DNA of 39,329 bases from positions 1-39,329 of IMG/VR virus record IMGVR_UViG_3300046000_009440, one strand, 5' to 3'. Below are positions 6,196 through 31,313 of the stretch, piece by piece. A program made the translations under genes and the position numbers. The notes under the pieces are model-generated. The model searched no databases. It saw nothing but the letters and a program-made list of their open reading frames with translations, and was not told the DNA's origin. Positions within the stretch are counted from its first letter, which is position 1. Each line of letters opens with the position of its first letter. The stretch is from a virus.

Positions 6196-6319
6196 AGTCA
6201 GGTGGCGGAATGGCTTGGGATTTCTCAAGCGATGGTAGACGCAGGCATGGAGTAATTAACTATGTTAGTCTTACTCTCTTGGCGAGAGTGACGTGCAGGT
6301 TCGAGTCCTGTCCTGACTA
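6196..6319 (+). tRNA. tRNA-like gene, Leu-type with long variable arm, aberrant
   Basis: Acceptor AGTCAGG (6196-6202) pairs fully with CCTGACT (6312-6318), and A6319 is the discriminator. TG is followed by a GCG...CGC D stem with GAAT and GGTAGA as in tRNA-Leu. The variable arm ACTCTC-TTGGC-GAGAGT and the T arm GCAGG-TTCGAGT-CCTGT are clear. Two things are wrong for a normal tRNA: a 22-nt block with its own hairpin (GCTTGGG-ATTT-CTCAAGC) sits in the D loop, and the anticodon stem GGCAT/ATGTT encloses 13 nt instead of 7. At 124 nt it is far longer than the usual ~87. No anticodon can be named with confidence. Confidence 0.55.
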
Positions 6320-6365
6320 CTATGGGTTGGTTACTACTATACAACGAATAGAGGAAGTAGAAAAT

Positions 6366-6436
6366 GGTCGGGTGGTGTGTTTGGTAAACACAACTAGTTT
6401 TTAGGAGGGTAGCAAGTTCGATTCTTGCCCTGACCA
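6366..6436 (+). tRNA. tRNA-like gene with non-canonical anticodon arm
   Basis: Acceptor GGTCGGG (6366-6372) pairs with CCTGACC (6429-6435) with one G.U; the discriminator is A6436. The D arm GTGT-GTTTGGTAA-ACAC (6375-6391) and the T arm GCAAG-TTCGATT-CTTGC (6412-6428) are textbook. Between them are only 20 nt (6392-6411) instead of 22-23, and they do not fold into a 5-bp anticodon stem; the best is CTA-GTTTT-TAG. TTT (Lys) or TAG (Leu) could be read as an anticodon, but neither is supported by a stem. It lacks an encoded CCA. Confidence 0.55.
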
Positions 6437-7929: not shown

Positions 7930-8589
7930 ATGAAAAAAATAGGAATAGTAGGTTGGAATACAGGTGAAAATAGCTTTGGTGTAACTAAGCCATATATTGA
8001 CTGGTTAAGTAACTTTGGTATTGTACATATATTATCTCCACAACAAGGAATTGTTGAAGGATTAGATCTATTAGTATTGCCAGGTGGACTAGATATAGCC
8101 CCTCAATCAATGAATCAAGTACCAGGATTCTTTACATCAAATACAGATGTTATGAAGCAGTACTTTTATGAAAACAATTTAGATCAATACATTGAAAACA
8201 ATACGCCAATATTTGGTATATGTTTAGGTTTTCAACAACTATGTGTAAAATTTGGAGGAACGTTGGTTCAAAATCATCCTTTTGATTACTCCACAAAACA
8301 CAGAGCAGAAAGAGTTGATACTTTAATTGGAACAGATAATTTGTTTAAAATTATTGAGAAAACAAGTTTTACAAAAACAAAGTATGAAGTAAATTCTTTA
8401 CATCATCAAGGTTGTTTTAGTGACTTTGAAGGAACTGATGTTGAAGTATTAGCTTTTGATAAAACATTTAAAAATGTAGAAATTGCAAAATTTTCACATA
8501 ATATTTATGGAGTTCAATACCATCCTGAAGAAATAAATGATGGAATTGCTTCAATAATTGTTAAAAAATTATTACAAAATGGAAACTAA
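7930..8589 (+). CDS. Class I glutamine amidotransferase / peptidase C26-like protein A
   Basis: A 219-residue class I GATase-fold enzyme. The nucleophile elbow is GICLGFQQ (Cys98). The C-terminal catalytic pair lies in YGVQYHPEE (His198, Glu200), and a second conserved stretch is SLHHQG (156-161). These features are typical of the C26/PuuD group, which hydrolyses gamma-glutamyl bonds, as well as of amidotransferase subunits. No synthetase domain is attached; it stands 21 nt after the GGCT-like gene and overlaps the ATP-grasp gene by 11 nt, which suggests translational coupling. Likely role: removing gamma-glutamyl groups, or supplying ammonia to the neighbouring ligases. The start follows a long A-run leader. 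Confidence 0.87.
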   Translation: MKKIGIVGWNTGENSFGVTKPYIDWLSNFGIVHILSPQQGIVEGLDLLVLPGGLDIAPQSMNQVPGFFTSNTDVMKQYFYENNLDQYIENNTPIFGICLGFQQLCVKFGGTLVQNHPFDYSTKHRAERVDTLIGTDNLFKIIEKTSFTKTKYEVNSLHHQGCFSDFEGTDVEVLAFDKTFKNVEIAKFSHNIYGVQYHPEEINDGIASIIVKKLLQNGN

Positions 8590-9496
8590 AAGAATAAGAC
8601 ATTCTGATTTATTTACATCTAGAAAAAGTCCTGTAAGTAAAAAAACAAAAACAATAACTCAGTTCAGGCCAATTATATTATCAAGACATCCAAGTCACAA
8701 TATACTTAGAGCTAAGTTTAAACACATCGTTCCTTTGCCTTATAGATCAGTGGTTAGATTTGGTTCTTCTACAGAGATGGAAGATACAATAGCTAAAGGT
8801 GGTCAACGTATAGAAGTTAATACAGTTCAAAGTATTAAGAATTCAGCAAATAAATTATTGATGAAACAAAAATTTACAGAAGCTGAAGTAAGAACTGCAG
8901 AATGGATACAATATACAAACCTAGAAACTTTACGTGGATGGGCCTCAGAAAAGTTTCCAATAGTAGCAAAAGCTCACTTTGGTTCAAAAGGCAAAGGCAA
9001 TACTTTAATAAAAAGCGCTGAAGAACTAGAAGAATGGATTAAAGAACATAGTCCTGTAAATTATATTTATGAAAAATTTATGAACTATGGTCACGAATTT
9101 AGATTACATGTAACAGAACAAGGTTGTTTTTATGCTTGTAGAAAAGCTTTAAAAGCAGATGTTCCTGAAGATCAGAAATGGAGAAGGCATGATGACATAT
9201 GTGTTTGGTTCTTAGAGGAAAATGAAAACTTCTTTAAACCAAATTCATGGAATGACATAGTATCTCATTGTGTTCTTGCTTTAAAATCAATTGGAGCAGA
9301 CATTCTATCTTTTGATGTTAGAGTTCAAACTCCAAAAAATAAAGATGGTGAAGCAAGAGAATATCAAGATTATATTTTATTAGAATGCAATTCAGCAAGT
9401 TCAATGAATAATGGAACTGATGAAATATCAGTGTGCGCTAAAAAATATATGGAAGAAATAAGAAAAGTAATATTGTCAAAAACTAAAGGAATATAA
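8579..9496 (+). CDS. ATP-grasp ligase
   Basis: A 305-residue ATP-grasp enzyme. ATP-binding Lys131 is in PIVAKAHFGSKGKGN, with the Gly-rich loop following. IYEKFMNYGHEFRLHV (163-178) is the usual linker with Glu and Arg. The metal-binding part is SFDVRVQ (Asp246, Arg248) and ILLECNSASSMN (Glu269, Asn271). Such enzymes make peptide or amide bonds through an acyl-phosphate, as RimK-type ligases do. The ATG at 8579 overlaps the preceding GATase gene by 11 nt and is preferred over 8558, which would overlap by 32 nt. Substrate unknown; the cassette context points to a carboxylate-amine ligation on a peptide or amino acid. Confidence 0.87.
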   Translation: METKRIRHSDLFTSRKSPVSKKTKTITQFRPIILSRHPSHNILRAKFKHIVPLPYRSVVRFGSSTEMEDTIAKGGQRIEVNTVQSIKNSANKLLMKQKFTEAEVRTAEWIQYTNLETLRGWASEKFPIVAKAHFGSKGKGNTLIKSAEELEEWIKEHSPVNYIYEKFMNYGHEFRLHVTEQGCFYACRKALKADVPEDQKWRRHDDICVWFLEENENFFKPNSWNDIVSHCVLALKSIGADILSFDVRVQTPKNKDGEAREYQDYILLECNSASSMNNGTDEISVCAKKYMEEIRKVILSKTKGI

Positions 9497-9497
9497 A

Positions 9498-10496
9498 ATG
9501 AAAGAAAAAATAGTAGTATTATTTGCTGCAAATATGATTGATAGATCTATTGTTAAATTTTTAGAAACAGAATTCGAAGTGTCAGTTATTGACATGAATC
9601 CTGAAAGATTAAAAAAAGTAAGTGAAGACGATGTTAATTTACTAAAAACAGTAGATTTAATGATTTTTACTGGAGGAGAAGACGTTGATCCAGAAAGATA
9701 TTACGAAAGTAGAGGTAAAAATACTTATGTAAATAAAAAAAGAGATCAAGATGAGTTCTTATATCTTTATCCAGAATCAACAAAAACTTACTTTATGAGC
9801 AGTATTCCTAAATTAGGAATATGCAGAGGAGCTCAATTACTTACAGTATATAATGGAGGCAAGTTAATTCAACATGTAGAAGGTCATAAAAATAACGAGC
9901 AAGTTATTGAAACAACTTCTGGAACAACATATACAATATCTTCAGATCACCATCAAATGATGAATCCTTTTGAATTAAAGAAAAATAGTTATGAATTAAT
10001 AGCTTGGTCTAAGTATTTTCAAAGTAATCAATATTTAAATGGTAAAAATGAAAACATAAAGTTACCAAAAAATTTTTTAGAGTCTGAAATAATTTATTAT
10101 AACAACTCTAATTCTTTATGTATTCAACCTCATCCAGAATGGTGTATAGGCAGTAAAGGTTCTGAATATTGTTTAAAGCTAATTAATAAGTATTTACTAA
10201 AAAAATCAATTGCAAATAAAAAAACAAATGAAGAATTTGTAGATTACTCTGTTCCTCTAGGAATGAATTCAATACCACATGGGTGGATGAGATCTGGGGT
10301 AGATGGAAATTCTTATATTTTTAATGGAGAATCATTTATATTAGCATCATCGTATAATTATGTTAATGAAATAGGAATTAAAACTACGTCAAAAAATGCT
10401 ACGAAACCAATACAAGATAGCTTAGTTGATGATTATTTTAGTTTTTTATCTAACACAGAAGAACAAGTTGAACCATCAAATAATGATGGTTGGTAA
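9498..10496 (+). CDS. Class I glutamine amidotransferase / peptidase C26-like protein B, with C-terminal extension
   Basis: A 332-residue second class I GATase-fold protein, distant from the one at 7930. The nucleophile is in LGICRGAQ (Cys109), a conserved ISSDHHQMM stretch lies at ~148-155 and the His/Glu pair is in CIQPHPEW (His212, Glu214). Residues ~236-332 are an extra domain with MNSIPHGWMRSGVDGNSYIF, ending in an acidic tail EPSNNDGW. The tail resembles that of the SSB-like protein (DSNW). It begins 1 nt after the ATP-grasp stop. Two such hydrolases in one cassette suggest separate tasks, for example deprotection of a gamma-glutamyl intermediate and ammonia supply. Confidence 0.85.
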   Translation: MKEKIVVLFAANMIDRSIVKFLETEFEVSVIDMNPERLKKVSEDDVNLLKTVDLMIFTGGEDVDPERYYESRGKNTYVNKKRDQDEFLYLYPESTKTYFMSSIPKLGICRGAQLLTVYNGGKLIQHVEGHKNNEQVIETTSGTTYTISSDHHQMMNPFELKKNSYELIAWSKYFQSNQYLNGKNENIKLPKNFLESEIIYYNNSNSLCIQPHPEWCIGSKGSEYCLKLINKYLLKKSIANKKTNEEFVDYSVPLGMNSIPHGWMRSGVDGNSYIFNGESFILASSYNYVNEIGIKTTSKNATKPIQDSLVDDYFSFLSNTEEQVEPSNNDGW

Positions 10497-10523
10497 ATTA
10501 ACACTTAAAAAAACATAAAAAAA

Positions 10524-11342
10524 ATGGAAATAAAAATTAAAAAACACGATATAAAATTAGGCAGCGATCCTGAAATATTTATTGAAAAAGATGGAGAAAT
10601 AGTTTCTGCAGTAGGAATGATTCCAGGAACAAAAAGAGATCCTCATCCAATAACAAATAAAGGTCATTTTATTCAAACAGATAATATTGCATTTGAATTT
10701 AATATTCCTGCATGTGAAACAGCTGAAGAGTATGTTGAAAACATTAATTTTGTAAAAGAACATTTGGAAGTTTTAGCTAATGCAAATGGCTGTAAGTTAT
10801 CAACAATAGTTTCAGCTGAAATAAATCCTATTCACTTACAAACTCGTCAAGCAAAAGAATTTGGATGTGAACCAGACTTAAATGTTTACCTTCAAGATTT
10901 AAATCCAAAACCAGATTCAAACACTAATCTTAGATGTGTAGGTGGACATGTTCATATTGGATATCCAAACCCAGACTTTGAAGTCAGCGAGAGAATAGTA
11001 AAAATGTTTGACATTATGGTTACTTTACCTTCTTTATTAATAGATAAAGATGATAGAAGAAGAGAATTGTATGGTAAACCGGGTTCTTTTAGACAAAAAG
11101 ATTTTGGCGTAGAATGCAGAGCTTTATCTAATTTCTGGATTCATTCAGATGAATTAATAGCTTGGGTTTTTAATCAAACAATAAAAGCTGTTGAAATTGT
11201 TTTAGACAATCAAGATGATGTTTATATTAATAAATTTTCAGAAGAAGTTAGAGAAGCTATAGAATCAAACAATAGAGATTTAGCTAAAATTCTTATTGAA
11301 AATATAGCCGAAGTAAGTCAAACAAAATTAGAATTTGCTTAA
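10524..11342 (+). CDS. COOH-NH2 amidoligase (phage glutamine-synthetase-fold ligase)
   Basis: A 272-residue enzyme of the phage-type COOH-NH2 ligase family, which shares the glutamine-synthetase fold. Motifs in order: KLGSDPEIFI (11-20, metal Glu), QTDNIAFEFNIPA (51-63), CVGGHVHIGY (138-147, His142 and His144) and the Arg-rich nucleotide loop DDRRRELYGKPGSF (176-189), then FGVECRALSNFW (194-205). Family members are predicted to join a carboxylate to an amine with ATP (Iyer and Aravind's amidoligase survey). It lies 27 nt after GATase B and 26 nt before the class II GATase gene, all in one direction. Target unknown. Confidence 0.88.
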   Translation: MEIKIKKHDIKLGSDPEIFIEKDGEIVSAVGMIPGTKRDPHPITNKGHFIQTDNIAFEFNIPACETAEEYVENINFVKEHLEVLANANGCKLSTIVSAEINPIHLQTRQAKEFGCEPDLNVYLQDLNPKPDSNTNLRCVGGHVHIGYPNPDFEVSERIVKMFDIMVTLPSLLIDKDDRRRELYGKPGSFRQKDFGVECRALSNFWIHSDELIAWVFNQTIKAVEIVLDNQDDVYINKFSEEVREAIESNNRDLAKILIENIAEVSQTKLEFA

Positions 11343-11368
11343 TATTTAAATTAACAAAATAAAAAAAA

Positions 11369-13351
11369 ATGATAAAAATTATATTAATATTAACATTAAT
11401 ACATTATATCGGATTCTATTTATTTAAACCAAGCAGGAATACATTATCTTGTGGTTTATTTGGATGGGCGGGCAAAGATGTCAAAAAATTCAATAAAGAT
11501 AAATTTGATAAATTAGGAATACTAAATGTAGAAAGAGGTAAAAATTCTTGTGGAGTATCTTTTGACGGAGATATACATATAGGTCTAGATTCTAAAAAAA
11601 TGTATTATGACTTCATAATAGATAGAGAAATCAATCCTAAAAAATATCCAGTTGTAATTGGACATACAAGACAATCTAGTGTTGGTGTTGTAAATGTTCA
11701 TAATGCTCATCCTTTTGGATTTGGGCAAAATGGAGAAGATTTTGAATTTATTGGAGCTCATAACGGAACTTTGAAGAATCATAAAGAATTAGCTAAAAAG
11801 TATTATGTAGATGATGTTTTTGAAACATTTTACAAAAATGCTCATGATGTTGAAGTTACTACTACTAGAGATAAAATAGATTCTGAAATATTACTAGAGA
11901 TAATATGGAGAAGTAAAAACTTTAAAGTATTAAGTGAGTATGTTGGAGGAGCTGCATTAGTCTTTACAGACACAACTAATCCTAATGTGCTATATCTTTT
12001 TAAAGGCAGTTCTAAAGATTACACTAGTAGTTCAAAAGAAACTGTTGAAAGACCATTATTTGTTTATGTTGAAAATAAAAACTCAATGTATTTCTCTTCT
12101 ATAGAAGATTCTCTTAAAACAATTGGCGGAAAAGACAATAGCATTATAGACATAGAACCAAATGTAGTTTATAAAATAACTAATGGTGATTTTATCAACT
12201 CAGAAATAATATCGGTAACTAGAATAAATGCAACACAAAATCTTCCAATAAACTATGGGAGTGGAAGATATGGTGCAGATTATGGTTATGGTTATAATCA
12301 TGAGTTTTATGAAGTTTATGAAGAACACAAGTCAATCGCAAAAAAAGAAAAAGAGGAAGAGACGAAAACTTCATTAATAACTCTTCCAACCTTGAAAGAA
12401 CAAGGAAAAGAAACAGAAAAAATAGAAGGTAAATCATTATTATTAAATGCATATAGTGAAAAGCCTCTTAAAAATGTAAATGAATACAAAGGCGTTCCTT
12501 ACTTCAACATGTTTAGATGGTGGTCAAATGGACAATTAGTTACTGGTATTTATACTTGGATAAATAATTATGGTTATTATTATCTAGGAGAGACTAATAA
12601 AGTTGCAACAGAAAGATTCTTTTTTTATTTAGATAAAGTTTTTGACGGAAAAATATTTTACGATAATGATGCTTTTACAAAAGGAGTTGTTCCTTTTAAA
12701 AGTACAAACGTAGTTAATCCAACACTATTTTATTTTGTAGAAGGAATCCAGTTAAAAACTAAATTAGATTATGCAGCAATGTATAATGTGCATTCTACTT
12801 TAAAAAGAAACCCTAAAGAATATTTAGACTACATCAAAGCATCTAAAGTTTCTACTCATCCAATTTTGAATTTAAATTTCAAAGCAAAACCAATAAATCA
12901 GCAATCTTTACTTAAAGATGGAGAAGAATATACTGGTAAAATACAAATTTTAGGTTCTGAAAAAATATATGAAATTTCAAAAGGCAATCTAATTGAAGTA
13001 AAAAAAAGTGAATATTTTTCAAATCTAAATCAAGAAGGTTCTTTTCATGTTGAATTTATAGATAAAGATCAATCATCGATAGATTTTGACGATTTTGACG
13101 ATATAAAACTTGATGACGAAAGAATAGGTAGTTTAGATGAAGAATTGCTATTAGACGCTATGATTAATCAAGAAGAGGAAGAAAATGAATTGATTGATGA
13201 AATATGTAACGAAGGCTTTATAGAGCCATTAAAGGATTTTCAACAAATAAGAAGTAAATTGTTTAATAGATATACAGATAACAATCTGGCTATAAAAGTT
13301 ATAAGTTTTATAGATAATACTATTGCCGATATGAATTCTTTTATTAAATAA
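11369..13351 (+). CDS. Class II glutamine amidotransferase with hydrophobic leader and large C-terminal extension
   Basis: A 660-residue protein. Residues 28-290 form an Ntn-type GATase: SCGLFGWAG with the predicted nucleophile Cys28, RGKNSCGVSF, VIGHTRQSS, NAHPFGFG, IGAHNGTLKNH and DSEIL. In this family the Cys must become the N-terminal residue. Here it is preceded by 27 residues that begin MIKIILILTLIHYIGFYLF, a hydrophobic segment like a signal or anchor, so cleavage before Cys28 is needed. No in-frame ATG, GTG or TTG lies closer. A charged linker (~310-350) leads to a second region with VPYFNMFRWWSNGQLVTGIY, and the C-terminal ~130 residues are very acidic. It would release ammonia from glutamine for the flanking amidoligases. 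Confidence 0.83.
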   Translation: MIKIILILTLIHYIGFYLFKPSRNTLSCGLFGWAGKDVKKFNKDKFDKLGILNVERGKNSCGVSFDGDIHIGLDSKKMYYDFIIDREINPKKYPVVIGHTRQSSVGVVNVHNAHPFGFGQNGEDFEFIGAHNGTLKNHKELAKKYYVDDVFETFYKNAHDVEVTTTRDKIDSEILLEIIWRSKNFKVLSEYVGGAALVFTDTTNPNVLYLFKGSSKDYTSSSKETVERPLFVYVENKNSMYFSSIEDSLKTIGGKDNSIIDIEPNVVYKITNGDFINSEIISVTRINATQNLPINYGSGRYGADYGYGYNHEFYEVYEEHKSIAKKEKEEETKTSLITLPTLKEQGKETEKIEGKSLLLNAYSEKPLKNVNEYKGVPYFNMFRWWSNGQLVTGIYTWINNYGYYYLGETNKVATERFFFYLDKVFDGKIFYDNDAFTKGVVPFKSTNVVNPTLFYFVEGIQLKTKLDYAAMYNVHSTLKRNPKEYLDYIKASKVSTHPILNLNFKAKPINQQSLLKDGEEYTGKIQILGSEKIYEISKGNLIEVKKSEYFSNLNQEGSFHVEFIDKDQSSIDFDDFDDIKLDDERIGSLDEELLLDAMINQEEEENELIDEICNEGFIEPLKDFQQIRSKLFNRYTDNNLAIKVISFIDNTIADMNSFIK

Positions 13352-13355
13352 AAAT

Positions 13356-15080
13356 ATGTCTAAAAAAGTGATAAAAATAGTAACAACAATAAAAGGAGAA
13401 GAATTACCTATTTCTAAAACAAAAAAGTTTCCAAATGGATACTACAAAATAGGTGATGAAAACGTAGAGAACTCAGGAGATTGCTATAAAATAAATGATA
13501 AGTTTTATAGATTTGAAACTGGACAACTTGTATTTAATAACTCGATACAAAAATATCAATTATCAAGTAATGATGTAATTTACGGATTAATAGATAATAG
13601 TAAATTTGGTTATTTTAACAGAACTGAACCAGAAAAAATTCCATTAGTGTTAGAAAATGGAAATAAATCTTTTGCAATTAACGAAGAAGTATTAAAAAGC
13701 AATTTAGAATTTAGAGAAGAATTAAGTACTGGAAATTTTGTACACATATCTAAATTAAGTGCAAATAAATTTAATAAAATACTTCCTCCTAAAAATGAAT
13801 ACAAAACTAGTTTGCCTTATGACTCAAAGGGAATAACTGGTAGACATTCAGATCTCTATGAACGATTCTATGACTCAAAGATAAATAACAATTGCAATAC
13901 AGTTGCTGAAATAATTGACGGTTTATCTTTTGGATTAGAATTCGAAACAATTGCTGGATTTATTCCAGAAAGAATTACAAAAAAATTAGGATTAATTCCA
14001 CTAAGAGACGGAAGTATTAGTGGTTTAGAGTATGTTACCGTTCCGTTTAGTGGGAACAAAGGCGTTCAGGCAATAGTAGATGTATGTAAAGTTTTGAAAG
14101 AAAGAACTGAATTCAACAATTCTTGTTCATTTCATTTACATATTGGAAACGTTCCAAGAACTCCTGAATTTATATTAGCGTTTTTAAAAGTAAGTTCTTT
14201 TGTTCAAAACGATATATATAGTATGTTCCCGCTATACAAACAATATAATATGGGTATAAAAAATAAAAATTATAGTAAACCATATGATATGTTTGATCTG
14301 TTTAGCAAAATGGATAGTGTAATTGATAAAAAAAATATAAATAAAAACTTCAATGTTTTATTTAGTTTTTTAGCATCAAATAAAGCTTCTTTTAGCGACT
14401 ATTCAAATGATTTGAATCTTGTAGATAGTCATCCATTAGATCCAAGTGGTAATCAAAAATGGAATGTAAATACAAGATATTTTTTACATAATTTCATTCC
14501 TTTGATTTTTGGTAACAAGCAAACAGTGGAATTTAGGGTTCATACTCCAACATTTGATTATTATAAAATTATAATGTTCTTGTTAATGAATAGTATTTTA
14601 GTAAAAACAGCTATTAAATACGAAAAAGAAATATTACAAGATCCTTTATTTTTTGATAAAATAAAAAATAGCGGAGAGTCTAAAATGAATTTGTCAAATT
14701 TACTGTATTTTTATAGAAGAAATAATGTAAAAGACGACAACGGAGCTTACATTGTTAATTCATTATGTAGATACATTAGTTATAGAAAACAAAAAGCTGA
14801 ATCTTTGACTGCTCAAGGAATGATTGCTTTTGAAGATCATTCAATTGCAATGGACAAAGAGATGGAATTTGATACAAACAGAATTTTAGATAGTAATCAA
14901 AAATTAAATGTATCAGAACAACCAGTTGCTCTTGAAAGTATTGATGCAAATCAATATCACTATGTAACTAAAAAAACAATTCAAGTTAATAAAGGCTATT
15001 TTAATACTCATGAAAGCTCAAGAGATATGACTTTATCTGAAGCTTTAAGTCGTCGTAAAACAACAAATCAAACTTTTTAA
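13356..15080 (+). CDS. Amidoligase_2-type ligase
   Basis: A 574-residue enzyme of the second amidoligase family (glutamine-synthetase fold). The core spans ~185-450: SFGLEFET (191-198), LRDGSISGLEYVTVPF (216-231), CSFHLHIGN (257-265, His260 and His262) and the NTRYFLHNFIPLIFG / TVEFRVHTPTFDYYK strands with the conserved Arg and Asn. The N-terminal ~180 residues are strand-rich and not recognised; they may bind the substrate. It begins 4 nt after the class II GATase stop, which suggests the two act together, ammonia or an amine from one being used by the other. It is the last gene of the seven-gene cassette. Confidence 0.87.
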   Translation: MSKKVIKIVTTIKGEELPISKTKKFPNGYYKIGDENVENSGDCYKINDKFYRFETGQLVFNNSIQKYQLSSNDVIYGLIDNSKFGYFNRTEPEKIPLVLENGNKSFAINEEVLKSNLEFREELSTGNFVHISKLSANKFNKILPPKNEYKTSLPYDSKGITGRHSDLYERFYDSKINNNCNTVAEIIDGLSFGLEFETIAGFIPERITKKLGLIPLRDGSISGLEYVTVPFSGNKGVQAIVDVCKVLKERTEFNNSCSFHLHIGNVPRTPEFILAFLKVSSFVQNDIYSMFPLYKQYNMGIKNKNYSKPYDMFDLFSKMDSVIDKKNINKNFNVLFSFLASNKASFSDYSNDLNLVDSHPLDPSGNQKWNVNTRYFLHNFIPLIFGNKQTVEFRVHTPTFDYYKIIMFLLMNSILVKTAIKYEKEILQDPLFFDKIKNSGESKMNLSNLLYFYRRNNVKDDNGAYIVNSLCRYISYRKQKAESLTAQGMIAFEDHSIAMDKEMEFDTNRILDSNQKLNVSEQPVALESIDANQYHYVTKKTIQVNKGYFNTHESSRDMTLSEALSRRKTTNQTF

Positions 15081-17787: not shown

Positions 17788-18768
17788 ATGCAATTAGATA
17801 AAAAAATATTAAGTGACATTACGGTATATTCAAAATATGCTAAACATTTACCTGAGTTAGAAAGAAGAGAAACTTGGGAAGAACTGGTTGAAAGGAATAT
17901 GCAAATGCATATGAAAAAACATCCAATAGTTGAAAATGACATTAAAGCTATTTATGATGATTTTGTTTTGACTAAAAAGATTTTACCATCAATGAGAAGT
18001 TTGCAATTTGGAGGTAGAGCAATAGAAATGAATAATAGTAGAATTTATAATTGTGCTTTTTTACCAATTGATGATATTCGTAGTTTTAGTGAAACTATGT
18101 TTTTATTGTTAGGCGGAACAGGCGTAGGCTATAGTGTTCAAAATCATCATATTGACAAATTGCCTGAAATTAGAAAACCTAATTTTGATCGTAAAAGAAA
18201 ATACGTAGTTCAAGATTCAATCATAGGTTGGGCTGATGCGGTAAAGGTATTATTTAAGTCTTATACTTCTGGCGGTAATCATATTGAGTTTGATTTATCA
18301 GACATTAGACATAAAGGTGCTTTATTAGTAACGGCTGGTGGTAAAGCGCCAGGACCTGAGCCTTTAAGAATTGCTTTAGTTAAAATTGAAGCAATACTTC
18401 GTGAAAAAGAAGACGGAGTAAAACTTACAGATATTGAGTGTCATGATATTCAATGTCATATTGCTGATGCAGTATTGGCTGGTGGTATTAGACGTGCAGC
18501 AATGATTAGTTTATTTGATTTAGATAGTGATGCAATGTTGAACTGTAAAGCCGGCAACTGGTGGGAAAACAATCCACAAAGAGGTCGTGCAAACAATTCA
18601 GTAACATTGTTACGTCATAAAATAGACAAAAAAACATTTGATAAAGTATGGGAGCGTATTGAAGCTTCAGGATCAGGAGAGCCAGGAATCTACCTTACTA
18701 ATGATAGAGATTGGGGCACTAATCCTTGTTGTGAGATTGCGTTACGTCCTTATCAATTCTGTAACCTT
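17788..18768 (+). CDS. nrdJ: Class II (B12-dependent) ribonucleotide reductase, exon 1
   Basis: The first 327 codons of a monomeric adenosylcobalamin-dependent ribonucleotide reductase of the Lactobacillus RTPR type. Cys89 (RIYNCAFLP) corresponds to the first redox Cys. The end of the exon reads NPCCEIALRPYQFCNL, giving Asn312, radical Cys314, Glu316 and redox Cys325. The spacing equals that of N406, C408, E410 and C419 in the L. leichmannii enzyme. GGTGVGYSVQN and AGGIRRAAMISLFD are also typical. The exon ends after CTT at T18768: AACCTT (18763-18768) pairs with the intron guide GAGGTT (18779-18784). CGT and CGC Arg codons are more frequent than in neighbouring genes, a hint of foreign origin. 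Confidence 0.93.
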
Positions 18769-18821
18769 TAATTTCTAGGAGGTTGTAAAAGACAGAGAAT
18801 TGCTGGGATATCTAAGTATAA

Positions 18822-18914
18822 TATATAGTCCTATAACAGGTGTAATAGTCAAAAACAAGTCAGGAAAATTATTGAAATCCTGATTAAAATAAGGTTCGAG
18901 TCCTTATTATATAT
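18822..18914 (+). tRNA. tRNA-like fold inside the P5 loop of intron 3
   Basis: The acceptor TATATAG (18822-18828) pairs with TTATATA (18907-18913) with one G.U. Next come TC, a D arm CTAT-AACAGGTGTA-ATAG (18831-18848, with GG in the loop) and a perfect T arm TAAGG-TTCGAGT-CCTTA (18890-18906). Between D and T arms are 41 nt with a hairpin TCAGGA...TCCTGA around a 12-nt loop, so the anticodon domain is not canonical. It may be a captured tRNA that has become part of the intron, or a coincidental elaboration of P5. Function in translation is unlikely. Confidence 0.4.
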
Positions 18915-19099
18915 TATATATGACAATCAGCAGCCGAGCCCTACAAGGGAAGGTTCAGAGACTATCCGTAAGGAGTACACTCAAGTGAGTGGAAGCACTG
19001 TCATCTACACAGTAGATATGATATAGTCCGAACTGCATAGAAATATGCAGATGGGTAAAATTTAACAATAATTTAACATTAAAAATTAGGAATCTTAAA

Positions 19100-19140
19100 T
19101 TGAATTTTGTATATTTGTATTATTACAAAATTCAAAATAT
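19100..19140 (+). promoter_or_regulatory. Promoter-in-hairpin leader of the intron 3 HNH gene
   Basis: TATATTTG (19110-19117) matches the Bacteroidota -7 box. A perfect 12-bp inverted repeat surrounds it: TTGAATTTTGTA (19100-19111) with TACAAAATTCAA (19124-19135), ending 5 nt before the ATG. In read-through pre-mRNA this hairpin would cover the start region. A transcript started by this promoter, at about 19124, would lack the left arm and leave the start free. Confidence 0.65.
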
Positions 19141-19602
19141 ATGCAAGAACTAATTAAAAACAGAGAAGGTAATTTAGTATCAACTACACATAGAGAATGT
19201 TCTAATTCAAAATGTGATATAATATTTAAAATAACTTCAAAAACTGTAACTTTATGTCCAAAATGTAACTCAGAAAGAGTTAAAAGTATTAATCCTATAA
19301 AAAGAATGCTTGCTAGAGCTAAATCTAGAAGTAAAACTAGAAATCACGAATTCAATATTGAATTTGAAGATATTATAGTGCCAGAATATTGTCCAATTCT
19401 AAATATAAAATTAGAATATAATAGTGGAAGAGCTGGTGGTGAAAGTAATTCACCTTCTTTAGATAGAATAGATAATACAAAAGGATATGTTAAAGGAAAT
19501 GTTATTGTTATTAGTCAATTAGCAAATTGTATGAAAAGTAGTTCTTCACCTGAAGAATTAAAACAGTTTGCAAAATGGATTAATAAAGAATTCCCTGATT
19601 AA
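19141..19602 (+). CDS. HNH homing endonuclease in intron 3
   Basis: A 153-residue protein with two N-terminal Cys pairs (HRECSNSKC and TLCPKCNS), likely a zinc ribbon, followed by an HNH-type core: VPEYCPILNIKL, SPSLDRIDNTKGYVKGNVIV and ISQLANCMKSSSSPEELKQF. This is the layout of small phage HNH enzymes that nick intronless targets and spread their intron. It lies after the ribozyme core and ends 27 nt before the 3' splice site. It has its own promoter-like leader, so it can be expressed apart from the reductase. Confidence 0.88.
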   Translation: MQELIKNREGNLVSTTHRECSNSKCDIIFKITSKTVTLCPKCNSERVKSINPIKRMLARAKSRSKTRNHEFNIEFEDIIVPEYCPILNIKLEYNSGRAGGESNSPSLDRIDNTKGYVKGNVIVISQLANCMKSSSSPEELKQFAKWINKEFPD

Positions 19603-19629
19603 GTTTAACGAACTTAATTGAACAAAATG

Positions 19630-20508
19630 GTAGAAATAAATATGAGTAATATTTTAAATCAAGAAGATTTAAATTCTCGCGCGCGCGCCGCTTCTTATTT
19701 AGCAACATTACAAGCATCATATACAGACTTTCATTATCTTAGAGATATATGGAGAAAGAATACTGAAAAAGATGCTTTATTAGGAGTTTCTATGACAGGT
19801 ATTGCTTCAAAAAGTAATCTTGAATTAAACTATCAAGAAGCATCAAGTATTGTAATTGAACAAAATAAAGTATTAGCTGAAATCTTAAATATCAATCCTG
19901 CAGCAAGAACTACTGCTGTTAAGCCTGCTGGAACTACTAGTTTAGTTTTAGGTACATCATCAGGCATTCATGCTTGGCATAATGATTATTATCTAAGAAG
20001 AATGAGAGTTAATAAAAATGAAGCATTATATCAATATTTAGCAATTTATCATCCAGAGTTAATTGAAGATGAATATTTTAGCCCAAACACTACAGCCGTA
20101 ATTACAGTGCCTCAAAAAGCACCAGAAGGAGCCATAACAAGACACGAATCAACTATAGATGCTTTAGAAAGAGTTAAGCTTATTTCTAAAGACTGGGTTA
20201 AAACAGGTCATATTAAAGGTCAAAACACCCATAACGTATCTTGTACTGTTTCAGTAAGAAACAATGAATGGAAGATTGTTGGAGAGTGGATGTGGGTTAA
20301 TAAAGATTATTATAATGGTTTATCTGTACTTCCTTATGATGGAGGAACTTATAAACAAATGCCTTTTTCTGACTGTACAAAAGAAGAATTTGAAAAACTA
20401 ATGCTTTCTTTAAAAAATGTAGATTTAACAAAAGTTATTGAAATTCAAGATAACACAAAACTTAATGACCAACTAGCTTGTTCGGGAAATAATTGCGAGA
20501 TTTCTTAA
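19630..20508 (+). CDS. nrdJ: Class II ribonucleotide reductase, exon 2
   Basis: The last 292 codons plus TAA. The exon opens VEINMSNI directly after G19629; the joined enzyme has 619 residues, shorter than the 739 of the Lactobacillus enzyme. AVKPAGTTSLVLGTSSGIHAW is the conserved phosphate-binding and barrel segment. The C terminus ACSGNNCEIS has the Cys-x4-Cys pair that re-reduces the active site through thioredoxin or glutaredoxin. The in-frame ATG at 19627 belongs to the intron. A run of 13 G/C bases (19678-19690), coding RARA, is out of character with the AT-rich genome. The phage depends on host cobalamin for this step. Confidence 0.93.
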   Translation, partial: VEINMSNILNQEDLNSRARAASYLATLQASYTDFHYLRDIWRKNTEKDALLGVSMTGIASKSNLELNYQEASSIVIEQNKVLAEILNINPAARTTAVKPAGTTSLVLGTSSGIHAWHNDYYLRRMRVNKNEALYQYLAIYHPELIEDEYFSPNTTAVITVPQKAPEGAITRHESTIDALERVKLISKDWVKTGHIKGQNTHNVSCTVSVRNNEWKIVGEWMWVNKDYYNGLSVLPYDGGTYKQMPFSDCTKEEFEKLMLSLKNVDLTKVIEIQDNTKLNDQLACSGNNCEIS

Positions 20509-23908: not shown

Positions 23909-24231
23909 CAGAAAAAAGATTTGATGAAGTAGTAGATATATTTTTAAATAGCATAAGAGAAACACTTATAGTTAAAGGTAAAGAATACAGAAGAAATGAA
24001 AATGTGTTTCATAATTTTGACGTAGGAGCACAAAGAAGTGGGTTAATTAGAGAGAAAGTTTTAGACGGATTTCTACTAAAACACGAAATATCAATTGCAG
24101 ATATTACTAATGATTTAGAAAAAGGAATACTTCCTAAGATTTCTACATTAGATGAAAAATTTGGAGATAATGTGATTTATCTTATTTTAAAAATGGCATC
24201 TATAATTGATAAAATAGAAAGCAGTGATTAA
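23905..24231 (+). CDS. DUF1599-like protein (nucleotide-modification-associated type 1)
   Basis: A 108-residue all-helical protein with the pattern KGKEYRRNENVFHNFDVGA, FLLKHEISIADI and DEKFGDNVIYLILKM. This resembles the small DUF1599/Nmad1 family, proposed to be linked to phage nucleotide modification. The Glu/Asp/His arrangement is also reminiscent of MazG-type helical nucleotide-binding folds. Its start overlaps the previous stop and its stop overlaps the radical-SAM gene by 8 nt. Confidence 0.65.
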   Translation: MTEKRFDEVVDIFLNSIRETLIVKGKEYRRNENVFHNFDVGAQRSGLIREKVLDGFLLKHEISIADITNDLEKGILPKISTLDEKFGDNVIYLILKMASIIDKIESSD

Positions 24232-25084
24232 ATTTCTTAACAGAAAATCAATGCTAATAAGATATTCAGGAAGGAGTAGTGATTATATTACTCCTTCATT
24301 TGGATATGGTTGCTTATTAAATTGCTCATATTGTTATATGAAAAGGCATTTATCAAAAGGATTGTCTATTTCTAAAAATTATCACGATATTTTAACAGCC
24401 GTAAATAGTCATGCTTATTTTGACACAATTGAAAAACCAAATCAAACGGATGATAAATTCATAACTTATGATTTCTCTTGCAATGAAGATTTTGCTTTGC
24501 ATTTAAAATATCATGAGTGGGAAAAAATATTTGATTTTTTTAAAGATCATCCAATTGCAAAAGGCACAATTGCAACTAAAGTAATTCCTATTGAATTGTT
24601 GAAATATAATCCTAATAAAAAGATTAGAATAAGATTTAGCTTAATGCCTCAAGTATATTCTAATTTGCTAGAACCAAACACTCCACAAATAATTGATAGA
24701 GTAAAAGCAATTAATACATTTATTGAAGCAGGATATGAAATACACATTAATTTTAGTCCTGTAATTATAGAAGAAGGTTGGTTAAAAGAATATGAAGAAT
24801 TATTCAAATTAGTTGATGAAAATGTAAAAGAAGAATACAAAAAAGAAGTGAAATGTGAAGTTATATTTTTAACTCACAATGAAGAAAAACATTTACAAAA
24901 TATTAAAGATAATTTAACAGGAGAAGAATTATTGTGGAAACCTGATATACAAGAAAGAAAAACATCTATGTATGGAGGAAATAATTTAAGATATAAGTTT
25001 CAATTAAAAGAAAAATATATTGAAGAATTTAAGACATTGCATAATAAAATAATTCCTTGGAATTTTATAAGATATATTTTTTAA
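24224..25084 (+). CDS. Radical SAM enzyme, spore photoproduct lyase-like
   Basis: A 286-residue radical SAM protein. The cluster motif is GCLLNCSYCY (Cys30, Cys34, Cys37, CxxxCxxC), preceded by RSSDYITPSFGYG. Strands with FITYDFSCNEDFALHL, GTIATKVIP, RIRFSLMPQ and EIHINFSPVI follow the SplB-type barrel order. Spore photoproduct lyases reverse thymine dimers, so a DNA-repair role is likely; a base-modification role is possible given the neighbouring DUF1599-like gene. The start is GTG at 24224, overlapping the previous gene by 8 nt; ATG 24251 is an alternative that still keeps the cluster. Confidence 0.8.
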   Translation: MIKFLNRKSMLIRYSGRSSDYITPSFGYGCLLNCSYCYMKRHLSKGLSISKNYHDILTAVNSHAYFDTIEKPNQTDDKFITYDFSCNEDFALHLKYHEWEKIFDFFKDHPIAKGTIATKVIPIELLKYNPNKKIRIRFSLMPQVYSNLLEPNTPQIIDRVKAINTFIEAGYEIHINFSPVIIEEGWLKEYEELFKLVDENVKEEYKKEVKCEVIFLTHNEEKHLQNIKDNLTGEELLWKPDIQERKTSMYGGNNLRYKFQLKEKYIEEFKTLHNKIIPWNFIRYIF

Positions 25085-30809: not shown

Positions 30810-31313
30810 TTATCCTAGTAATTTTTCACCTACATAATGATCTATAACCAACATGTCGGTACTTAATTTATAAATATCTAAATTTGTAATAGATTTACCT
30901 ATTTCTTCTTGTTGCTCTGTGCAATATTTTAAAGCTAATTGATACAATACGTGATTGCCTTCTTTTAAAGCCATAGAAGCAAGTTCCTCACATTGTTGAG
31001 TAACTAATAGCTCATGATCATAAGCAGCTTCTAAAACGTCTAATAAGCAGTCTATTTCCATTTCTGGAGAAGGCAACGCTTCAAGACAAGGAGTAATTCC
31101 ATAGTCTAATAAAAAATCTTTAGAAAATTTAGCATGAACTAATTCTTCATCTGAATAGTTTTTAAACAATTCAGCAAAATTTAAAAAGCCTTTGTTGTTT
31201 AACCACAAAGATAATTGCTCATAAATTCTTGAAGAATATTCTTCTTGTTGTATTCTATAGTTTAAAGTTTCAATAACTTTATCATTTAATAATTTTTTCT
31301 TATTATTTTCCAT
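30810..31313 (-). CDS. Ferritin
   Basis: A 167-residue four-helix ferritin. The ferroxidase residues can be placed exactly: Glu24, Glu57, His60 (YSDEELVHA), Glu101 (YDHELLV), Gln134 and Glu137 (TEQQEE). Each is seven residues on from E17, E50, H53, E94, Q127 and E130 of E. coli FtnA, so the site is complete and unshifted. DYGITPCLEALPSP is the family's loop between helices. It would oxidise Fe(II) and store iron. It is wedged between two giant virion-type genes with almost no spacing, an unusual place for a metabolic gene. Confidence 0.92.
   Translation of the reverse strand: MENNKKKLLNDKVIETLNYRIQQEEYSSRIYEQLSLWLNNKGFLNFAELFKNYSDEELVHAKFSKDFLLDYGITPCLEALPSPEMEIDCLLDVLEAAYDHELLVTQQCEELASMALKEGNHVLYQLALKYCTEQQEEIGKSITNLDIYKLSTDMLVIDHYVGEKLLG

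Follow-up and report, generated by a model that had tools for sequence, protein, structure and literature searches.

Group I introns of the P5abc type (subgroup IC) carry at the tip of P5 a multi-helix domain that is optional for the catalytic core and that has a hairpin with a GNRA-type loop and an A-rich bulge. Mimicry of tRNA within a larger RNA occurs at the 3' ends of plant viruses, where the tRNA-like end is free and charged, and in the thrS operator, where an anticodon-like hairpin is read by the synthetase. CYT-18 binds the core of its introns, a core that itself resembles a tRNA to the protein. This fungal mitochondrial tyrosyl-tRNA synthetase is a tRNA-binding splicing cofactor that recognizes tRNA-like intron features (PMC7373986). 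Bacterial Y RNAs mimic tRNAs according to work cited in PMC7790460. One such RNA, YrlA (RF02553), is a tRNA mimic without decoding, arranged in the order closing stem, T arm, acceptor-like hairpin, and D side.

The intron analyzed here, in a ribonucleotide reductase gene of a phage, has at its P5 tip a block that differs from all of these systems. As in the P5abc introns, it is a multi-helix peripheral domain, but its helices are, following the order of a tRNA, a D arm, a hairpin, and a T arm, and neither the GNRA-type loop hairpin nor the A-rich bulge is present (both were found by inspection in L440-L463). It resembles the plant virus ends and the thrS operator in being embedded in a larger RNA, but has neither a chargeable free 3' end nor an anticodon-like hairpin for a synthetase to read. 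Like YrlA it lacks decoding, but its order is the canonical, unpermuted one, and no TROVE/Ro60 gene was found in the phage records examined. In CYT-18-dependent introns it is the core that is tRNA-like, whereas here a separate tRNA-like domain is attached and a cofactor is hypothetical; the CYT-18 parallel drawn in the first-pass annotation therefore holds for the idea of a tRNA-binding splicing cofactor and is looser than proposed there, since CYT-18 does not bind an embedded tRNA. The searchable literature (mostly without subscription papers) yielded no account of a P5 with a tRNA-like domain.

The window, i.e., the whole stretch of DNA analyzed, is a phage record of 39,329 bases in which a group I intron lies within a class II ribonucleotide reductase gene. 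The main features are the following:

17788-18768, + strand: exon 1 of the class II (B12-type) ribonucleotide reductase, from the ORF translation, ending in ...YQFCNL
18769-19629, + strand: group I intron (intron 3), matched by RF00028, with boundaries from intron-less relatives
18798-18806, + strand: region of the 5' strand of P4, AATTGCTGG, from the RF00028 alignment
18816-18827, + strand: 5' strand of the 12-bp P5-extension/acceptor stem in the minimum-energy fold, partner 18908-18919
18822-18828, + strand: 5' side of the acceptor-like stem, TATATAG, from the descriptor scan
18831-18848, + strand: D arm, CTAT-AACAGGTGTA-ATAG, with A14, R15, G18, G19, and A21
18849-18889, + strand: nucleotide 26 and the remodelled anticodon/variable region, made of an unpaired linker, an 8-bp hairpin (18858-18885), and a second linker
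18890-18906, + strand: T arm, TAAGG-TTCGAGT-CCTTA
18907-18913, + strand: 3' side of the acceptor-like stem, TTATATA, with no CCA following
18926-18933, + strand: region of the 3' strand of P4, TCAGCAGC, from the RF00028 alignment
19141-19602, + strand: ORF of an intron-encoded HNH-type homing endonuclease (153 aa), from the translation
19630-20508, + strand: exon 2 of the reductase, starting VEINMSN..., from intron-less relatives

Exon 1 contains the Pfam RNR-II insertion domain (E 9.8e-5), and the insertion site is uninterrupted in nearly all nrdJ relatives with both exons in hand; in the intron-less ones, from viral contigs, the junction reads CNL followed directly by VEI or CEI. Intron 3 matches RF00028 at 18759-19050 over the full model (1-253) with 61.1 bits (E 3e-15), exceeding the gathering score of 50, and has the conserved P3-P9 core with P7/J8-7; by sequence it is a group I intron, predicted to be self-splicing. 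Its endonuclease ORF has 71 relatives in viral contigs and no Pfam match at E 0.01, the HNH label coming from inspection of the sequence. A TAnnTTTG promoter of Bacteroidota type was noticed by inspection upstream of the endonuclease gene, and this suggests Bacteroidota as the probable host phylum. Another intron-like insertion with an ORF is found in the same reductase gene in L046 (from 4940) and L100 (from 4943); it was set aside as a different element, about 14 codons upstream of the window site and, by inspection, without the tRNA-like block.

The P5 extension spans 18816-18919. The P4 strands are 119 nt apart here and 29 nt apart in the sister intron L090, which puts the surplus at about 90 nt and not at the 110 estimated at first; the P5 loops of introns 1 and 2 of the window are indeed short. 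Whether folded by itself or as part of the whole intron, the block has a minimum-energy structure in which the 12-bp stem encloses the D arm, the hairpin of 8 bp with a 12-nt loop, and the T arm, in tRNA order and with tRNA spacing (z -3.1; none of 200 shuffles was as stable). Within the whole intron, acceptor pairs 1 to 5 form with probabilities of 0.95-1.0, pair 6 with 0.65, and pair 7 with 0.19; the values are about 0.7 for the D stem and 0.86-1.0 for the T stem. The acceptor (18822-18828 with 18907-18913) is nearly all A/U, with six Watson-Crick pairs and one G.U, and the 4-bp D arm has GG in its loop. Among the conserved positions of the tRNA body, 16 of 17 are present (U8, Y11, A14, R15, G18, G19, A21, R24, G53, T54, U55, C56, R57, A58, Y60, and C61, including the G53-C61 pair), the only mismatch being Y48, which is A here. 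The first-pass annotation had described this as a tRNA-like fold grafted onto P5 at 18822-18914, with a 7-bp acceptor, a GG-loop D arm, a TTCGAGT T arm, and an abnormal anticodon domain; the coordinates are correct within one base, the acceptor and the D and T arms were recovered, as were their order and spacing, by the minimum-energy fold and by a descriptor, and the anticodon domain is indeed abnormal.

The remaining parts depart from a tRNA. Between position 26 and the T stem there are 40 nt with the single 8-bp hairpin in place of a 5-bp anticodon stem with a 7-nt loop, and instead of free, processable ends with a CCA, which is not encoded, the acceptor extends into six further P5 pairs. 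The graft is therefore not a tRNA by its anticodon domain or its ends; judged from the modelled fold, it is a tRNA-like body in shape, with an anticodon domain that would be unusable for decoding. The gene finders behave accordingly: ARAGORN reported no gene at the native block with default, intron-allowing, reduced-score, or mitochondrial settings, called it at a halved threshold amid spurious overlapping calls, and recognized it as a tRNA after the native middle had been replaced by a standard anticodon arm (as it did for the L006 block discussed below). The Rfam tRNA model RF00005, suggested at the outset as a check, gave a weak alignment of 16.9 bits, below the gathering score of 29 and in a different register from the one proposed, which is a real limitation of that register.

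To search for the arrangement without an anticodon domain we used a strict descriptor that asks for a 7-nt acceptor with at least six pairs, a 2-nt spacer, a 4-bp D stem with a GG loop, and a 5-bp T stem with a TTCRANY loop, and that recovers 84 of 144 ARAGORN tRNAs. It had no match in 20,000 dinucleotide-shuffled versions of the block or in a further 198 P5 regions, taken from introns selected by pattern. A scan of 6.5 Mb of strands yielded 96 distinct matches. Of these, 88 lie inside ARAGORN tRNAs, two are clear false positives, one is the block in the window, and about five more look on inspection like genes for tRNAs or tRNA-like RNAs. Six further conserved positions outside the descriptor also agree in the block (1 in 512 by simple base odds), and of 3,000 shuffles that were folded, only three came out with a similar arrangement of three hairpins that ends in a 7-nt loop. 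The tRNA-like fold of the block is rare and exceeds chance.

The nearest relative, L120, has an intron at the same site, with identical bases at 47 of 48 positions of the 5' part, 131 of 138 of the core (core identity of 95-98%), and 436 of 462 of the endonuclease. Its P5 interior, however, shares 55 matches with that of the window against a shuffled mean of 54.5; it has been exchanged wholesale for unrelated sequence. The P5 stem is also paired in L120 (14 bp), and in five of the pairs both bases differ from those of the window, a covariation that is weak because the changes are A/T-only. This stem helix is as far as the relatives bear out the covariance first called for: none was found for the D and T arms because no relative shares them. 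In L090, with the same site and a homologous endonuclease, the P5 extension is absent, as it is in L121, so that splicing presumably does not depend on the domain. The block itself, which was to be looked for in related introns, recurs in neither sister, and when the blocks of the window, L006, and L120 were compared by blastn with 50,697 phage records, nothing longer than short pieces matched.

The sequence that fills P5 in L120 has a T-type arm of its own (GUGGG-UUUGAUU-CCCAC, a 5-bp stem with a 7-nt loop) followed by an 8-bp hairpin, which gives the insert a circularly permuted tRNA order; at 2200-2294 of L120 the T arm is followed by this acceptor-like 8-bp hairpin, capped by UUU. YrlA has the same order and is the best tRNA-mimic match of the insert in Rfam, end to end, although its 16.0 bits (E 1, or 0.08 for the L120 record) lie far below the gathering score of 69. 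These matches hint weakly at a permuted, Y-RNA-like T-arm module. Over 26 nt, the T arm and variable region of the insert match a stretch of a tRNA-like gene of L009 with 92% identity.

A second candidate, L006, is an intron with a GIY-YIG endonuclease in the polymerase gene of another phage (the gene was named by inspection), and was found through a T-arm pattern, hence selected by its T arm. Its P5 block aligns to RF00005 positions 1-71 with 21.2 bits, under the gathering score (E 0.004 for its 126-kb record and 0.034 in a short search), and its lowest-energy fold is not a cloverleaf; the resemblance is weak, and weaker than that of the window block. Relatives of the L006 endonuclease have, by inspection, a P5abc-like domain at the same place. 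Among 194 other long P5 inserts, a string resembling a T arm turned up only once more, in L199, where it is weak and of A/T type, and no other T arm with a 5-bp stem was found. Inspection of the other introns of the same phages, and of eight introns near those of described phages, showed no comparable tRNA-like P5 extension. Pattern matches in L191, which on inspection is an ordinary tRNA-Cys, and in L192 were rejected as not being introns, and L434/L435 are introns with P5abc-like extensions in which a chance GGTTCAA string occurs and a T arm is absent. There is one clear case of a tRNA-like P5 graft.

Other tRNA-like elements are found in the window and in related phages. At 6366-6436 of the window lies a tRNA-like gene that RF00005 scores over its cut-off (37.2 bits) and ARAGORN does not call; only about 20 nt separate the D stem from the T stem, so that the anticodon arm is shortened. 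A long tRNA-like element at 6197-6322 has AGTCAGG...CCTGACT ends, a long variable arm, an extra D-loop hairpin, and at the anticodon position a 9-nt loop, AGTAATTAA, which recurs in the L006 P5 block. Records of related phages (L411, L420, L409, and L424) contain more tRNA-like genes, which ARAGORN either rejects or leaves unassigned, and abnormal tRNAs look like a trait of this phage group. The phage record of L040, a close nrdJ relative, encodes a tmRNA with a tRNA-Glu after it (L407/L424). Elsewhere in the window, an ATP-grasp protein, two glutamine amidotransferases (C26-like), a phiEco32-like COOH-NH2 ligase, a protein with a class II amidotransferase domain, and an amidoligase are clustered at 7930-15077, an arrangement that suggests a cassette for making peptides or amide bonds, and there are genes for a spore photoproduct lyase-like radical SAM protein (24224-25081) and a ferritin-like protein (30813-31313).

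Several explanations of the block have to be weighed. A chance resemblance within an A+T-rich P5 extension is very improbable: the window was picked over by eye for striking features, so that there is some selection, and the alignment favoured by the Rfam tRNA model is not the proposed one, but the descriptor's empty counts in shuffles and P5 regions, its false-positive rate, and the agreement at positions beyond it all speak against it. That the block is a phage tRNA gene, present or recent, nested in the intron, with a product that tRNA-processing enzymes free once the intron is spliced and with an anticodon domain in decay, appears unlikely. Related phages do have many tRNA genes, several of them abnormal, and the L120 insert shares its T arm and variable region with a tRNA-like gene; however, no blastn relative of the whole block was found in the phage records, the acceptor is nearly all A/U, the anticodon loop is unusable, and the hairpin that replaces the anticodon arm is well formed, not decayed. 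This possibility is ranked low because the flanks are paired and the CCA is missing, and processing by RNase P or RNase Z is disfavoured for the same two reasons, the acceptor running on into P5 and the CCA end being absent.

The strongest competing explanation is that the insert is neutral and swappable: almost any foldable RNA would be tolerated at the P5 tip, which would have caught a functionless tRNA or piece of one. We consider this a serious possibility, though a somewhat less probable one than a functional domain. Introns of phages and bacteria often have long P5 extensions, with many sequences unrelated to one another, and the interior was swapped between sisters and is missing from L090; yet the elbow nucleotides and the D and T arms are intact despite the altered anticodon domain, and a T arm, of the 5-bp-stem type otherwise unseen in the 194 inserts, appears again in the L120 replacement. 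A broader proposal, which we regard as doubtful, is that P5 in this lineage is a docking slot that has repeatedly acquired tRNA mimics of varied topology, with a bacterial tRNA-binding protein as a general splicing cofactor; the window graft would then be joined via its acceptor stem, the permuted L120 module via an anticodon-side stem, and the L006 block in replacement of P5abc.

We tentatively prefer to see the block as a tRNA-like domain at the periphery of a mobile group I intron, on its P5, kept for folding and/or for proteins that bind T arms. The computed fold, the tRNA identity of the acceptor, D, and T arms, the absence from one sister, and the replaced interior in the closest one are the observations at hand, and from this structure we infer what the domain may do. 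An acceptor continuous with P5, the missing CCA, and the loss of the decoding end argue against translation and ordinary tRNA maturation, while the preservation of the T arm, the stacking helix, and the D/T elbow is the reason to prefer a P5 folding or landing domain. The block would have been captured from a tRNA, or would have converged on one, and its anticodon domain would have been remodelled without decoding. With the acceptor stem continuous with P5, the D/T elbow and T arm would project from the ribozyme, and a module locked by its D and T loops could provide a rigid, fast-folding P5 domain, as P5abc does elsewhere. TruB and TrmA act on T arms, and both are tRNA-folding chaperones. The T arm might attract such host enzymes, which need only that part of a tRNA, and folding of the intron might thereby be aided. 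An anticodon-reading synthetase is an unlikely partner, and binders of the T arm or elbow would fit the block better.

The three sister introns, L090 without the domain, the window with it, and L120 with an exchanged module, form a natural set for measuring the effect of a P5 domain on folding. Splicing cofactors derived from tRNA-binding proteins are known from fungal mitochondria; if the intron carries a true tRNA-like domain, the recruitment of host proteins to ribozymes in bacteria by tRNA mimicry would become directly testable.
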